From Clostridia bacterium (GTDB lineage Bacteria > Bacillota > Clostridia > Christensenellales > Pumilibacteraceae): a stretch of 64,000 nt of DNA. This document shows, piece by piece, positions 35,344 to 60,032 of this stretch; the stretch's first letter is position 1, and each line of letters starts with the position of its first letter. The notes under the pieces are model-generated. The model was given only the letters and a program-made list of their open reading frames with translations. It did no database searches and had not been told where the DNA came from. The position numbers were made by a program, and so were the translations under genes. The DNA lies in the NCBI GenBank assembly GCA_022793815.1, contig JAAWDP010000007.1, forward strand, positions 1-64,000, in the 5' to 3' direction.

Positions 35344-35690
35344 TTTATCCACTTTTATTTAATAGTTGATTTATCCACATTGTGGATAAATCGGTGGATA
35401 ACTTTGTTTGCAGTTATAATTCATTATTTTTTTGCTTTTTTTCTTACCTAAAACATTATTTAATTATTTATATTGTGGAAAACCTTTTTCTGATTGTTTA
35501 AAGAAAACTTATTCTTGTCCACATTGAAATAGTATTATTTATTATTATATATGAATTTTAAATACAATATCTTGCGGTCTGTTTTACTTGTACACAATTG
35601 TGAACAGACTAATATAAATAATACTATTAAATTAAATATTAAATTAAATATTAAATAATCCTTAACTTATAAAACAAAATTTTCATTTTA
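35344..35690. other. Candidate chromosomal replication origin (oriC)
   Basis: A 430-base gene-free gap between divergent genes. It has perfect DnaA boxes TTATCCACA (35371-35379) and TGTGGATAA (35381-35389), and near matches at 35345 (TTATCCACT), 35393 (GGTGGATAA), 35474 (TGTGGAAAA), 35515 (TTGTCCACA) and 35588 (TTGTACACA). To the right lies a very AT-rich stretch (35610-35660) with tandem copies of AAATTAAATATT, suitable as an unwinding element. Nearby are mnmE, rsmG and parB, classic origin neighbours, and gene orientation flips here. dnaA is not in the window. Confidence 0.65.
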
Positions 35691-52990: not shown

Positions 52991-54094
52991 ATGAAGGTAA
53001 TTTGCAGCGGCGGCGATTTATCCGATGCGGTAGGAAAAGTAATCAAAGCGGTTTCGGCGCGCAACGCGAACCCGATACTCGAAGGAATAAAACTCAAAGC
53101 GGAGCAGGGAACGCTTACTCTCACCGCTACCGACCTTGAATTGGCTATCGAAAAAAGCATAGTCGCAGACGTCAAGATAGAGGGCGAAACCGTAGTGCCA
53201 GGAAGACTGTTTTCCGAGTTTGTACGCAAACTCAACAGGGAACAAATCGAACTTTCCGTTGCCGACGGCAATCAGCTGAAAATAAGATATATGCAGTCCG
53301 AAGGCGTGCTTCAATGTCTGAATGCCGACGAATATCCTCAAATCAAGGAATTGAGCGAGGCGCAGACTTTTTACATGATAAAGAACGAGTTCAAGGACCT
53401 TGTAAACAAAGTTGCGTTTTCCGTGAGCACGGACGAGAGCCGCCCCATTTTGAAAGGCGTATTGCTCGAAATCGACAATGTATCGGTGACGGGCGTCGCG
53501 CTTGACGGCTACCGTCTTGCGAAATGCGTCAAGCCCGTGGAAAAGACGACGGCGATGATGAGCGCGATTGTACCGGCAAGATGCATAACGGAAATAGCGC
53601 GTCTTGTCGAGGACACGACCGACCCCGTCAAAATTTCCATTCAGCGCAATTATATGCTTGTGGACCTCGTGCATACAAAGATAACTTCGCGCCTTTTGGA
53701 CGGCGATTTCATAAATTATAAGCAGATAATCCCCGCGGCGTTCGAAACGACGGTTACCGTTCCGAAGGAACAGTTCGAATCGGGACTGGAAAGAGCCATG
53801 CTCCTGTCCCGCAGCGAAAAGAACAATCTTGTGCGGTTCGACGTAAAAGAGGATGTATTACAGCTCTCGTCCAACAGCGAGGCAGGTACTATAACCGAGA
53901 AAATCCCCGTTAAAATTACGGGCATGGATATGTCCATCGCTTTCAATGCGCGTTATTATGCGGAGCTTTTGAAATTTGTCGAGTCGGAATATATCGTAAT
54001 AAAGTTCACCAGTCCGTCCGCTCCGTGTATCGTTGTTCCAACGGATTCACCGGAAGATTTCATATATCTCATACTGCCCGTAAGAATGATGTAG
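52991..54094 (+). CDS. dnaN: DNA polymerase III beta sliding clamp
   Basis: A 367-aa clamp of normal length. It begins MKVICSGGDLSDAVGKVIKA and has the family segments PILEGIKLKAE, TDESRPILKGVLLE and the C-terminal LILPVRMM that forms the end of the clamp's peptide-binding site. It encircles DNA and tethers the replicase. It has its own promoter and terminator, and neither dnaA nor recF is beside it, unlike the dnaA-dnaN arrangement of most Firmicutes. Confidence 0.96.
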   Translation: MKVICSGGDLSDAVGKVIKAVSARNANPILEGIKLKAEQGTLTLTATDLELAIEKSIVADVKIEGETVVPGRLFSEFVRKLNREQIELSVADGNQLKIRYMQSEGVLQCLNADEYPQIKELSEAQTFYMIKNEFKDLVNKVAFSVSTDESRPILKGVLLEIDNVSVTGVALDGYRLAKCVKPVEKTTAMMSAIVPARCITEIARLVEDTTDPVKISIQRNYMLVDLVHTKITSRLLDGDFINYKQIIPAAFETTVTVPKEQFESGLERAMLLSRSEKNNLVRFDVKEDVLQLSSNSEAGTITEKIPVKITGMDMSIAFNARYYAELLKFVESEYIVIKFTSPSAPCIVVPTDSPEDFIYLILPVRMM

Positions 54095-55726: not shown

Positions 55727-55755
55727 AAATGAAAAGGTTTTACCGAGGTGAAGAA

Positions 55756-56514
55756 ATGGCGCGGAAAGCGAGAGAGCGGGCTATGTCCGGCATATATTAT
55801 GCGGAAGCAGTCGGCAACAACAAACTCATCTTTATAGAGGCGGACGATTACCGCTATTTTCTTTCGCTTGCGCGGCAGGCGGCGGAGGAAGATTTTTCCG
55901 AAATATGCGCTTATGCGCTGTTTCCCGAACACGTACATTTTGTTTTGAAAGAGGGGCTAAACGGTATATCCGAGTTCATGCGCAAAATACTTCCGAAGTA
56001 TACGGCGCATTACAACGGCAAGTACGGACGCGACGGGAAACTGTTTTACGACAGATTCAAGTCGCAGCCGTTGGAATCCGAAGAGGAAACGCTCAATGCC
56101 GTGAGGTATATTCACCGTCTGCCGCTTTCGGACGGCGCAAGCGGCGGTTTGAAATACGAATGGTCGAGTTATAATGCATACGACCGCAGCGAAAGCAGTG
56201 TTCGCGGCGGTACGGTAATGATGATTTGCGGCGATTCGCCGCAGCGGTTTCGGTTGGAAATGGATGCGGAAGCGACGCCGATGAGTCCGCCGACAAAACC
56301 CACTGACGAACAGGTTGCTCAAATGCTGAGAAACAGACTTGCGGGAATGAGTGCGGAAGAGGTGGAAAACATGAGCGAGGAAAAACATGCGGAGCTCGTG
56401 CGCTATCTGCATGATGCGGGAGTCAGCATACGCAGGCTGGCTTTGCTGCTCGGCGTCGGCAAAAGCGAAATAGAGCGCTGTCTTAAAACGGTGCGAGGCG
56501 GAGAAAATAAATGA
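55756..56514 (+). CDS. REP-associated tyrosine transposase-like protein (RAYT, Y1/HUH)
   Basis: A 252-aa protein. The HUH histidine pair is in LFPEHVHFVL (residue ~57-66), and the catalytic tyrosine is probably in VRYIHRLPL (residue ~117). The C-terminal ~80 residues include a helix-turn-helix-like stretch (DAGVSIRRLALLLGVGKSEI). Such single-copy domesticated transposases nick single-stranded DNA at REP hairpins. No REP array or terminal inverted repeats are visible here, so it does not look like an active insertion sequence. GAGGTG precedes the ATG; the next small gene overlaps by four bases. Confidence 0.8.
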   Translation: MARKARERAMSGIYYAEAVGNNKLIFIEADDYRYFLSLARQAAEEDFSEICAYALFPEHVHFVLKEGLNGISEFMRKILPKYTAHYNGKYGRDGKLFYDRFKSQPLESEEETLNAVRYIHRLPLSDGASGGLKYEWSSYNAYDRSESSVRGGTVMMICGDSPQRFRLEMDAEATPMSPPTKPTDEQVAQMLRNRLAGMSAEEVENMSEEKHAELVRYLHDAGVSIRRLALLLGVGKSEIERCLKTVRGGENK

Positions 56515-56751: not shown

Positions 56752-58797
56752 ATGACAAAAAACAACAAATCGGTGGAACCGAATATTGCGGATTTGGCAA
56801 ACGGTTGGCTTAAATCTTACGGCTTGGATTATAAATTGGAGCAAGAGTCGTTAAATACCGAGATAGACCGAGCGCTTAACGATTATGCATCGAAAAACGG
56901 CGGCGTGGGCGGCAATCGTCCCGACGCAAAGCTTTTATTACGCGATAAAAATTCAGTCGCTTATCCTATTTTGATAGAATACAAGGGTTACAAAGACAGA
57001 TTAGTCAAATTAGACGGCGACGGAAAGATTGCCAACAAAACCGCAAAAAATACGTCCGATTTCAAAAACATAAATTCTTATGCGGTAAACGGTGCGGTAC
57101 ATTATGCCAACGCACTTTTACATTATACGAGTTATACGGATATTATTGCAATAGGTATGACGGGATATAAAGATGTTTACGGGAAATTGCAACATTCTAT
57201 CGGTGTATATTTCGTGTCAAAAAGCAATTTCGGTATCGGACAAAAAATCGACGACTATACGGATTTTTCCTTTTTGAAAAAAGAAAACTTCGACGAATTT
57301 ATCGAGAAAGTTAAAAGGTTGCAGCTGTCGCAAGAGGAAATCGATAAACTTAAAGAACAGCGTGAACGCGAAATCGATGCAAGCCTTGTAAAACTCAATA
57401 ACGATATATATCAAAACGAAAAAGGGCTTGGCGAAAACGACCGTGTTTATCTTGTTGCCGCGTCAATCATAGCAACGCTCGGCATACCGAATAAAGTAGC
57501 CGCCCTCGAAAAATCGGATTTAAAATCGTCCGACGAAGAGGGAAACCGTGACGGCGATATAATCTTACGGAAAATCAAAGCGTTTTTGAATGAAAAACAA
57601 TTGCCTCAGGAAAAGAAAGATTTAATCATTCGCACGCTTGCAAATACGCTTACTACCGACAACATCAATAAAGAAGAAAACGGTGAAAGTCAGTTAAAGC
57701 GCATATTTACAAAAATCGTAGACGATTTGGGTATTTATTATAAAATCGGTTTGACTACCGATTTTACCGGCAAGCTGTTTAACGAAATGTATAATTGGTT
57801 GGGATTTTCGCAAGATAAACTGAACGACGTCGTTTTGACACCGTTTTACATATCGACGCTTTTGGCAAAACTTGCACGTGTGGACAAGGATTCTTACGTT
57901 TGGGACTTTGCCACGGGCTCGGCGGGGCTTTTAGTTGCGTCAATGAACGAAATGCTTATTGACGCCAAAAATAAAATAAAGTCGCCGGAAGAATTGGCAA
58001 AGAAATCGGCGGCTATCAAAGCCAATCAATTGCTCGGGTTAGAGATACTTCCGAGCGTTTATATGCTTGCCATACTCAATATGATTCTTATGGGTGATGG
58101 AAGCTCTAATATTCTAAATAAAGACTCGTTAAAAGACTTTGACGGTAATTACGGATTCGGCAATACGGATAAAAAATTCCCCGCAACTGCATTTGTACTT
58201 AATCCGCCCTATTCGGCGGCGGGCAACGGTATGATATTCGTTGAGCGCGCGCTTTCTATGATGAGTAAAGGCTATGCCGCGATTATAATACAAAACTCTG
58301 CGGGTTCGGGTAAGGCAATAGAATACAATAAAAAAATATTGAAACACAGTACACTGCTTGCAAGTATAAAAATGCCGATTGATTTATTTATAGGCAAATC
58401 GAGCGTTCAGACTAATGTATATGTTTTCCGTGTGGGCGAGGCACATCACAAAGACTGTACGGTGAAATTTATCGATTTTTCAAACGACGGATATACGAGA
58501 AGCAACCGCAAAAAAGCAAGTTGCAATTTGAAAGATACCGACAGAGCAAGGGAGCGCTATCAAGAGATTGTCGATTTGGTACAATTCGGAAAAAAGAAAC
58601 TGAATATTTTTACCGAAAACGAGTATTACGAAGCAAACATAGACCCCGAAAACGGTGCAGACTGGAATAAAACCGCGCCGATAGATACAAAACCTACACT
58701 TGATGATTTTAAGAAAACGGTAAGTGATTATCTTGCATGGGAAGTTTCATGTTTATTAAAGCGTCAAGATAAGGAGAATGACCGCTTGGGAAAATAG
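56752..58797 (+). CDS. BcgI-like restriction-modification (RM) subunit: PD-(D/E)XK nuclease fused to N6-adenine methyltransferase
   Basis: A 681-aa bifunctional protein. The N-terminal domain has a PD-(D/E)XK nuclease pattern: P57-D58, then E76-Y-K78 in PILIEYKG. The rest is a HsdM-type methyltransferase, with a helical N-domain, SAM motif [14 protein letters not shown] at ~383-396 and catalytic NPPYSAAG at ~484. The fusion of nuclease and methylase, and the absence of an hsdR gene, match Type IIB/BcgI-like enzymes, where an RM subunit works with a separate S subunit (A2B in BcgI). It ends ...RLGK at TAG 58795, at a predicted -1 frameshift site that leads straight into the S subunit. Confidence 0.85.
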
Positions 58798-58837
58798 AAG
58801 CCTCACTTAACGAGAAACTGCAAAGCGTTAAGTGGGG
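58771..58837 (+). promoter_or_regulatory. Predicted -1 programmed ribosomal frameshift signal joining RM and S subunits
   Basis: Four elements lie in the right order. A Shine-Dalgarno-like AAGGAG (58771-58776) sits 11 bases before the heptamer G GGA AAA (58788-58794, X XXY YYZ in the RM frame). The RM stop TAG follows immediately. Six bases after the heptamer, a 12-bp stem CCTCACTTAACG/CGTTAAGTGGGG (58801-58812 with 58826-58837, one T-G pair) encloses a 13-nt loop. Slipping back one base places the ribosome in the S-subunit frame at ATA 58794. The layout resembles the E. coli dnaX frameshift cassette. Confidence 0.65.
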
Positions 58838-59909
58838 CGAATACAGACTCGGAAACTTATTTAAAATAAATCCAACAAAGTATTATCGTTTAGAAAATGA
58901 AGAAATCCTGTCTGAAAATGGACAAGTACATTTAGTGTCCAATTCCTCCGTAGATAACGGAGTTATGGGTTTTTCTTCCTTAAAAGCGTTAAATAAAGGA
59001 AATACGCTTACGTGCTCGGACACTACTCTCGGCGCAGACACAATGTTCTATCAAGAACGTGATTTCATCGGGTACTCTCATATACAGCATTTAGTCCCCA
59101 AATTCCAACATTTTAACAAGGCGATTGCGGAGTTTATTATTGCCGCTTGTAGAATGTCAACATCAAAGAAATATGATTATGGCAATAAATTCAATCGTGA
59201 TGCAATGAATGAAACTTTGATTCAACTCCCCCAAAAAGGCGATGAGATAGATTTTGATTTTATGGAAAGCTTTATAGCCGAACTGGAAGCTCGGCATATA
59301 GCCGAACTGGAAGCATACTTAACTGTTACGGGATTAAAAGATTATATATTAACCAAAGAAGAAGAAAAAGCGCTTGAAGATTTCAATACGCTTAACTGGA
59401 CGCATTATAACCTTGAAGATTTGTTTGGAAAATCCACACGCGGCAAACGCCTTAAAAGTGCAGACAGAATTCAAGGCGATTTGCCATTCGTGACGGCGGG
59501 CGAAGCTTGCGAAGGTGTATCGGCTTATATAGGAAACGACGTTGAAGTTTTTGAAAGCAACACTACTACTATCGATATGTTTGGCTCTGCCAAATATCGT
59601 AATTTCCGTTACGGCGCGGACGACCACGTAGCCGTAGTCCATACCGAAAAACTATCCGAGCACGCGGCTGTTTTTGTAACTACGGCGATTCACAAATCAT
59701 CTCATACTGGAAAATTCGACTATTCACGAAACTTCTATGCAAAAGATGCTGACGAATTAGACGTATTGCTTCCCGTCAATGAAGATAAACCCGATTATTT
59801 ATTTATGGCTACCTTTATATCGGCAATTCAAAAGCTTGTAATAAAAGATGTTGTTTTATATACCGATAGAAAAATAGAAGAAACAAAAAAAGTGGTTGCC
59901 GATATCTGA
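58794..59909 (+). CDS. Specificity (S) subunit of the BcgI-like system, apparently translated by frameshifting
   Basis: About 371 residues in the -1 frame relative to the RM gene, beginning [20 protein letters not shown]. It has two target-recognition-like repeats: [18 protein letters not shown]... and [20 protein letters not shown]..., with helical spacers ([20 protein letters not shown] and the C-terminal [10 protein letters not shown]). It reads DNA sequence for the RM subunit. The frame has no ATG, GTG or TTG until a GTG at 58935, which would delete ~47 residues of the first domain; the frame is preceded by TGA at 58779. Expression as an RM-S fusion of about 1050 residues is the simplest reading; otherwise the gene is damaged. 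Confidence 0.75.
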
Positions 59910-59971: not shown

Positions 59972-60032
59972 TGTGGATAAAACGGCGAAATTGTGGATAA
60001 CTCTGTGGATAACTCGACTATACTGTGGATAA
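59972..60032 (+). repeat. Array of four perfect DnaA boxes
   Basis: TGTGGATAA occurs at 59972-59980, 59992-60000, 60004-60012 and 60024-60032, all in one orientation, with start-to-start distances 20, 12 and 20. It fills the gap between the S-subunit stop and the yitT stop. It could be a DnaA-titrating or regulatory cluster, or part of an origin. Confidence 0.85.

Follow-up and report, generated by a model that had tools for sequence, protein, structure and literature searches.

The closest described counterparts of the system analysed here are the Type IIB enzymes BcgI and BsaXI, in which an RM subunit uniting a nuclease with an N6-adenine methyltransferase works with a separate S subunit built from two recognition domains (TRDs) and helical spacers. 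BcgI contains two RM chains per S chain (PMC3874165), as a first-pass annotation of this DNA had noted, and BsaXI has the composition (RM)2S (PMC11997821). In the single-chain Type IIB enzymes AloI, CjeI and TstI (RMS), RM and a two-TRD S share one open frame and only the fusion is made, at 1 RM : 2 TRDs. AloI and TstI function at this ratio (PMC3874165, PMC4027205), and how the RM-S fusions AloI and CjeI could keep one RM per recognition domain has been called a mystery (PMC3874165). A further point of comparison is EcoKI, whose hsdM and hsdS genes lie in different frames at their junction; there S has a start codon and is translated by coupling to M, and the junction is not described as having a slippery heptamer. 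An engineered fusion of M to S still restricts in vivo, and in vitro it is active only with added M (PMC3510504), which sets a precedent for assembly from M and M-S. Frameshifting was likewise considered in one Type II system, CR.NsoJS138I, where it was tested and no product was seen (PMC3850674).

Cassettes of the dnaX and IS3-family kind combine an SD-like element, a slippery heptamer and a downstream stem-loop, and serve polymerase subunits and transposases. To our knowledge, most described cases of -1 frameshifting in bacteria concern transposons, dnaX and some phage genes. The system described here, located in a 64,000-nt stretch of clostridial DNA (the window), is by its sequence a BcgI-like R-M system combined with a dnaX-like recoding cassette, which would here serve a restriction system and give the longer product. 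We put the probability of this overall explanation, a BcgI-like (Type IIB/IIG) R-M system with S from a programmed -1 frameshift, at about 0.9. The papers searched yielded no restriction system shown to use programmed frameshifting, though one may be listed in REBASE or in survey supplements; this agrees with the first-pass annotation, which knew of none using it in this way. The main texts of the GeneTack survey, with its 146 candidate frameshift clusters (PMC3711429), and of the E. coli heptamer survey (PMC4066793) do not name restriction systems as frameshift cases.

The RM and S frames and their junction

The source contig is contig 20 of a 1.7-Mb genome that is 98% complete. On its forward strand, the RM gene (56752-58797) encodes 681 aa ending in LGK, followed by TAG, and is laid out as an N-terminal PD-(D/E)XK-like nuclease region, a helical linker and an N6-adenine methyltransferase. 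The methyltransferase motifs, I (57904-57933) and NPPY, motif IV (58201-58212), together span 57904-58212, and the protein matches Pfam N6_Mtase at 2.2e-19. Sequence inspection of the N-terminal region reveals P57 D58 ... E76 Y77 K78 (56920-56985, plus strand), which can be read as a PD-(D/E)XK nuclease motif; across 21 homologues P57, D58, Y77 and K78 are invariant and E76 is nearly so. The putative nuclease assignment draws on this motif together with PADLOC, whose REase_MTase_IIG profile PDLC03616 (Type IIG REase-methyltransferase) matches RM at 1.9e-239; the Pfam score for VRR_NUC lies below that family's cut-off. A fold model of moderate confidence matches HsdM and the BsaXI RM, and the PDB holds no sequence relative of RM or S. 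One in-frame fused relative (L107, 4001-5983) reads IHYK instead of IEYK at the nuclease motif, with His at the position of the near-invariant Glu, and may therefore lack nuclease activity. Just upstream of RM in the window, a 261-aa ORF (55729-56514) resembles, as read by eye, a Y1 (REP-type) transposase.

The S frame lies at -1 relative to RM on the same strand (58794-59909) and extends for 371 aa past the slip site. A TGA at 58779-58781 bounds it upstream; it is open only from 58782 until its stop at 59907-59909, and its earliest ATG, GTG or TTG is the GTG at 58935. This codon lies within TRD1, so ordinary initiation would cut into that domain, which upholds the original observation that the S frame has no start codon preserving TRD1. 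An ATG at 58778 was discarded as an S start; it belongs to the +1 frame, not to that of S, and opens a 10-codon ORF. The S protein carries Pfam Methylase_S, the Type I/IIB specificity domain, and its AlphaFold model (mean pLDDT 90) consists of two recognition domains and two helical regions, matching HsdS subunits and the BsaXI S chain. From the model, TRD1 is placed at approximately 58830-59243 (with further guidance from the homologue L003), the conserved helical region CR1 joining both TRDs at 59253-59390, TRD2 at approximately 59394-59786 and the C-terminal helical region CR2 at 59796-59906, all on the plus strand.

The window thus holds both parts of a BcgI-like system, an RM with nuclease and N6-adenine methyltransferase and a two-TRD S, and an RM2:S1 composition is presumed by analogy with BcgI and BsaXI. 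Unlike their separate S, this one lacks a start codon of its own and would be made as RM-S by -1 frameshifting. With AloI, CjeI and TstI it has in common an RM and a two-TRD S in one chain, but the two do not share one open frame: the single-chain enzymes exist as the fusion only, whereas the window would make both RM and RM-S, and its in-frame relatives are one-TRD proteins.

At the end of RM, the SD-like stimulator AAGGAG (58771-58776) stands 11 nt before the slippery heptamer G_GGA_AAA (58788-58794), which is in RM-frame register and would slip to GGG AAA; the RM stop TAG (58795-58797) follows directly. These elements lie exactly where the first-pass annotation had put them, on the plus strand. 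The stem-loop that it reported is also present (58800-58838), with 13 bp (58800-58812 pairing with 58826-58838) and a 5-nt spacer rather than the 12 bp and 6 nt originally given; the spacer is 6 nt if the outer G-C pair is left out. Its folding energy is -20.3 kcal/mol (z = -6.4), and none of 200 shuffles was equally stable. As had been noted, these are the parts of known -1 cassettes such as dnaX, and the spacings match: an X_XXY_YYZ heptamer in register, a downstream structure that is under selection and falls within the 5-8 nt after the heptamer given in PMC4066793, and the optional upstream SD-like stimulator. By itself GGGAAAA is common, with 24 occurrences in the window against 16 expected; its significance is in frame and place, not in mere occurrence.

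Directly after S, four exact DnaA boxes (TTATCCACA, minus strand) occupy 59972-60032, and an inverted pair of exact boxes lies at 35371-35389; the window contains 6 exact boxes against 0.34 expected. With dnaN at 52991-54094, the boxes at 59972-60032 may mark part of a replication origin region.

Distribution of the family and conservation of the cassette

A scan of 84,980 species genomes recovered 80 RM relatives at 76-94% identity, and further loci in E. coli genomes, sampled Clostridia, phages, viral contigs and a plasmid bring the set to about 95 homologues whose RM is 64-94% identical. Carriers span a dozen or so phyla, Bacillota, Bacteroidota, Pseudomonadota and Spirochaetota among them, and over 80 of the copies retain the slip signal with hardly a change. 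The frameshift family is widespread and highly mobile, occurring in phages, on plasmids and in many phyla. Per genome it is rare (6 of 391 in a class sample, 2 of 398 in a phylum sample); 22 of 5426 complete E. coli genomes contain most of the locus, and a viral pattern scan gave one locus. In the phylogeny, all frameshift loci fall into one clade with support 100, and relatives with an own-ATG S lie outside it. The deepest clade member, L106 (64% identity), keeps the heptamer and the stem, its RM stop lying 24 nt further on. Homologues that start S in the ordinary way and lack the heptamer, which the first-pass annotation had named as evidence that would count against it, are absent from the family and appear only among relatives no more than about 51% identical (L114, L095, L096). 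The independent genomes share the -1 arrangement, and the missing base whose presence was to be checked, an assembly indel at the junction, is thereby ruled out.

The 80 loci chosen by RM similarity, with the junction ignored, comprise one that is cut off, four in-frame fusions and 75 readable non-fused loci. GGGAAA(A/G) stands in register at the junction in 72 of these 75, which is the unbiased measure of its conservation, the 82 distinct junctions considered below having been picked by having the heptamer. L027 has A_AAA_AAA, so that a slippery heptamer is present in 73 of the 75; in the other two (L037 and L075) it is degenerate with the arrangement otherwise kept, which speaks against the frameshift reading. 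Elsewhere in RM bodies, the in-frame rate of GGGAAA(A/G) is 3.3e-4 per codon. The codon before GGA ends in G at 82 of 82 junctions, against 27% expected from each gene's codon use, and it encodes Leu, Ser, Glu, Gln, Pro, Val or Ala; a single Trp codon in this position was a spurious match in the fused L034. The heptamer Gly is likewise GGA in 82 of 82, compared with at most 74% for any one codon (median 45%) in 35 other conserved Gly columns. On this evidence from alignments, the junction is selected at the nucleotide level, beyond the protein. The heptamer ends in A at 56 loci and in G at the other 26 (L012-L119), contrary to the lysine codon use of the genes themselves: AAA-ending copies are mostly Clostridial, and AAG makes up 30% of Lys codons in genes of AAA-ending copies and 15% in those of AAG-ending ones. 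A tRNA-Lys(CUU) is not supported as the reason for the Clostridial AAA ending, only tRNA-Lys(UUU) having been found in this 98% complete genome.

Conservation extends to both flanks of the heptamer. Cells of the stem are paired in 95.6% of cases, against 33-46% in slid controls; double changes occur in 6 of the 13 pairs, and compensatory cells number 50 against 10.2 in shuffled data (0 of 500 shuffles as high). At stem columns 22/42, A-U has become G-C in L017, L036, L067 and L069 and C-G in L048, and these loci are scattered over the tree. An SD-like word precedes the heptamer by 6-19 nt at 67 of 82 junctions, where the remainder of the genes would predict 12.0, and its position is sharply peaked, with about 10 nt between word and heptamer. 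Homologue RM stops are TAG, TAA or TGA and sometimes lie later than the heptamer end. In the test on homologous junctions that had been set beforehand, heptamer, stop, stem-loop and SD-like element are thus conserved together, and the stem covaries.

The S proteins themselves vary around this constant junction. Complete S at frameshift loci is mostly 358-416 aa with two domains, and L021 has the longest S frame, at 530 aa. Shorter versions in L042, L045, L071, L088 and L109 have internal stops and look broken; in L088, a stop ends recognition domain 1 and the second domain continues in another frame. In L003, from a sister species of the same genus, heptamer, stop and stem are shared with the window, as are RM and TRD2, despite a different TRD1 (about 1073-1452), a difference that amounts to a domain swap. 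L116 (E. coli SCU-104) and L101 have an extra copy of an EELEAAHI repeat in the S helical spacer relative to L092, a difference akin to the known variation in spacer length among S subunits of Type I systems.

Two readings that do without ribosomal slippage can be weighed against these patterns. Phase variation is common among restriction genes, and in some E. coli genomes S is a PGAP-annotated pseudogene without its N-terminus; the -1 frame might accordingly be a fossil frameshift or a phase-variable switch, a mutation turning the system off. However, the junction has no long repeat tract, a motif search puts S in the -1 frame in 77 homologues and out in the other direction in none, and S stays open in most complete loci, so this reading is barely credible. 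Transcriptional slippage, in which RNA polymerase would add or drop a base in a run and fuse the frames in part of the mRNA, would yield the same RM-S chain, and L101 and L027 do have seven-A runs. We nevertheless judge it highly improbable: GGGAAAA has four A against the eight or more of used runs (PMC3711429), the conserved elements on either side of the heptamer, SD-like word and stem, are stimulators of the ribosome, and the codon register is kept.

Two cassettes in E. coli prophages and the start of S

E. coli prophages carry the system in two forms. The first (L092, L104, L105, L108 and the 22 complete genomes mentioned above) has G_GGA_AAG with the common stem, and the second (L101-L103, L120, L121) has A_AAA_AAG with a different stem, AAACTCCCG...CGGGAGTTT (-17.6 to -19.0 kcal/mol), at the same place in the junction; their RM proteins are very similar and the start of S differs. 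According to PMC4066793, the most efficient heptamers measured in E. coli are C_CCA_AAG, G_GGA_AAG and A_AAA_AAG, of which the second and third are precisely those found in the E. coli copies. Two cassettes so unlike, with nothing in common but the frameshift function, are difficult to account for in any other way. Against the frameshift reading, the same study reports G_GGA_AAA, the heptamer of the window and of Clostridia, as inefficient in E. coli (PMC4066793).

The second form also bears on translational coupling, in which ribosomes terminating RM would reinitiate at a rare junction start (AUA overlapping UAG, as ATAG) and produce free S. The EcoKI hsdM/hsdS junction, with its 1-nt overlap in ATGA (PMC3510504), offers a precedent, distant relatives have own-ATG S genes, and the first S codon past the slip is ATA at 45 and ATG at 11 of the 82 junctions, a count that excludes three rows set aside. 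Yet that codon is GTA at 23 junctions and GCA at 3, so that 26 of 82 have a non-start codon there; ATG occurs at all junctions with a TGA stop and at no others, solely as a by-product of that stop; and at 39 of 82 the S frame is free of ATG, GTG and TTG between its upstream stop and a point 54 nt beyond the first base of the heptamer. An S start at or near the M stop, as in EcoKI, is thus missing, and AUA or any other S start codon was rejected for most loci. Reinitiation, moreover, has no need of a G before GGA, of GGA itself or of a stem 5 nt on, all of which are conserved; the RM stop moves in L061, L083 and L106 while the heptamer stays; and the A_AAA_AAG cassette has GCA or GTT at the would-be start position. 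Coupling is therefore an improbable source of S in general, though reinitiation could add free S at the 11 of 82 loci with a TGA stop and ATGA overlap. The conserved cassette, the covarying stem and the unrelated A_AAA_AAG cassette at the same place all favour the -1 frameshift first proposed for this junction, and, as far as sequence comparison can show, it is very highly probable that S is made by programmed -1 ribosomal frameshifting.

Subunit ratio and implications

Under programmed frameshifting, most ribosomes would terminate at TAG and release RM, and a minority, with the SD-like element behind and the stem-loop ahead, would slip from G_GGA_AAA to GGG_AAA and read on into S, giving an RM-S fusion. 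We infer that the slippage rate is high enough to be useful. RM and RM-S would then pair through both recognition domains of S, bringing 2 RM to 2 TRDs, and S would never be produced free of RM. The EcoKI MS fusion needs M in vitro, and a frameshift giving RM plus RM-S would supply just such a pair.

Relatives that have lost the signal indirectly support a ratio-setting role of this kind. In-frame RM-S fusions occur in L032, L034, L072 and L090 among the 80 loci, and in L107; in all of them the heptamer is gone and one recognition domain is present instead of two, and in L032 the stem is gone as well (-3.7 kcal/mol). They probably represent four separate events (L032/L034, L072, L090, L107), at least three of which are forced by well-supported branches. 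With only one TRD per RM in the fusions, one RM per recognition domain would be kept either way, and it is this that backs the role. On the other side, AloI and TstI work at 1:2, and the fold therefore does not strictly need a 2:2 ratio. On balance we lean towards frameshifting as the device that sets 2 RM : 2 TRDs, and it seems fairly likely that each enzyme has one RM and one RM-S with no free S, lineages that lose the signal rebalancing by dropping a TRD.

The frameshift might instead be real and limit enzyme assembly on entry into a new host, as a delay or a restraint on dose, rather than fix a 2:2 ratio. The high mobility of the system would suit such a role, and RM alone should be inactive, BcgI needing both subunits (PMC3874165). 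But cutting and methylation arrive in one enzyme, which leaves no methylation-first window, and the in-frame fusions drop one TRD rather than lower expression; we hold this role to be unlikely.

Programmed frameshifting, for its part, would account for the truncated and pseudogene calls that PGAP makes for S in E. coli, and many copies of the RM/S system are probably misannotated. The two cassette versions in E. coli prophages make the frameshift testable in E. coli. Frameshifting also suggests how an RM-S fusion can retain one RM for each recognition domain. If true, a frameshift conserved across many phyla in an enzyme of DNA defence would give this form of recoding a further, clear role in the cell.
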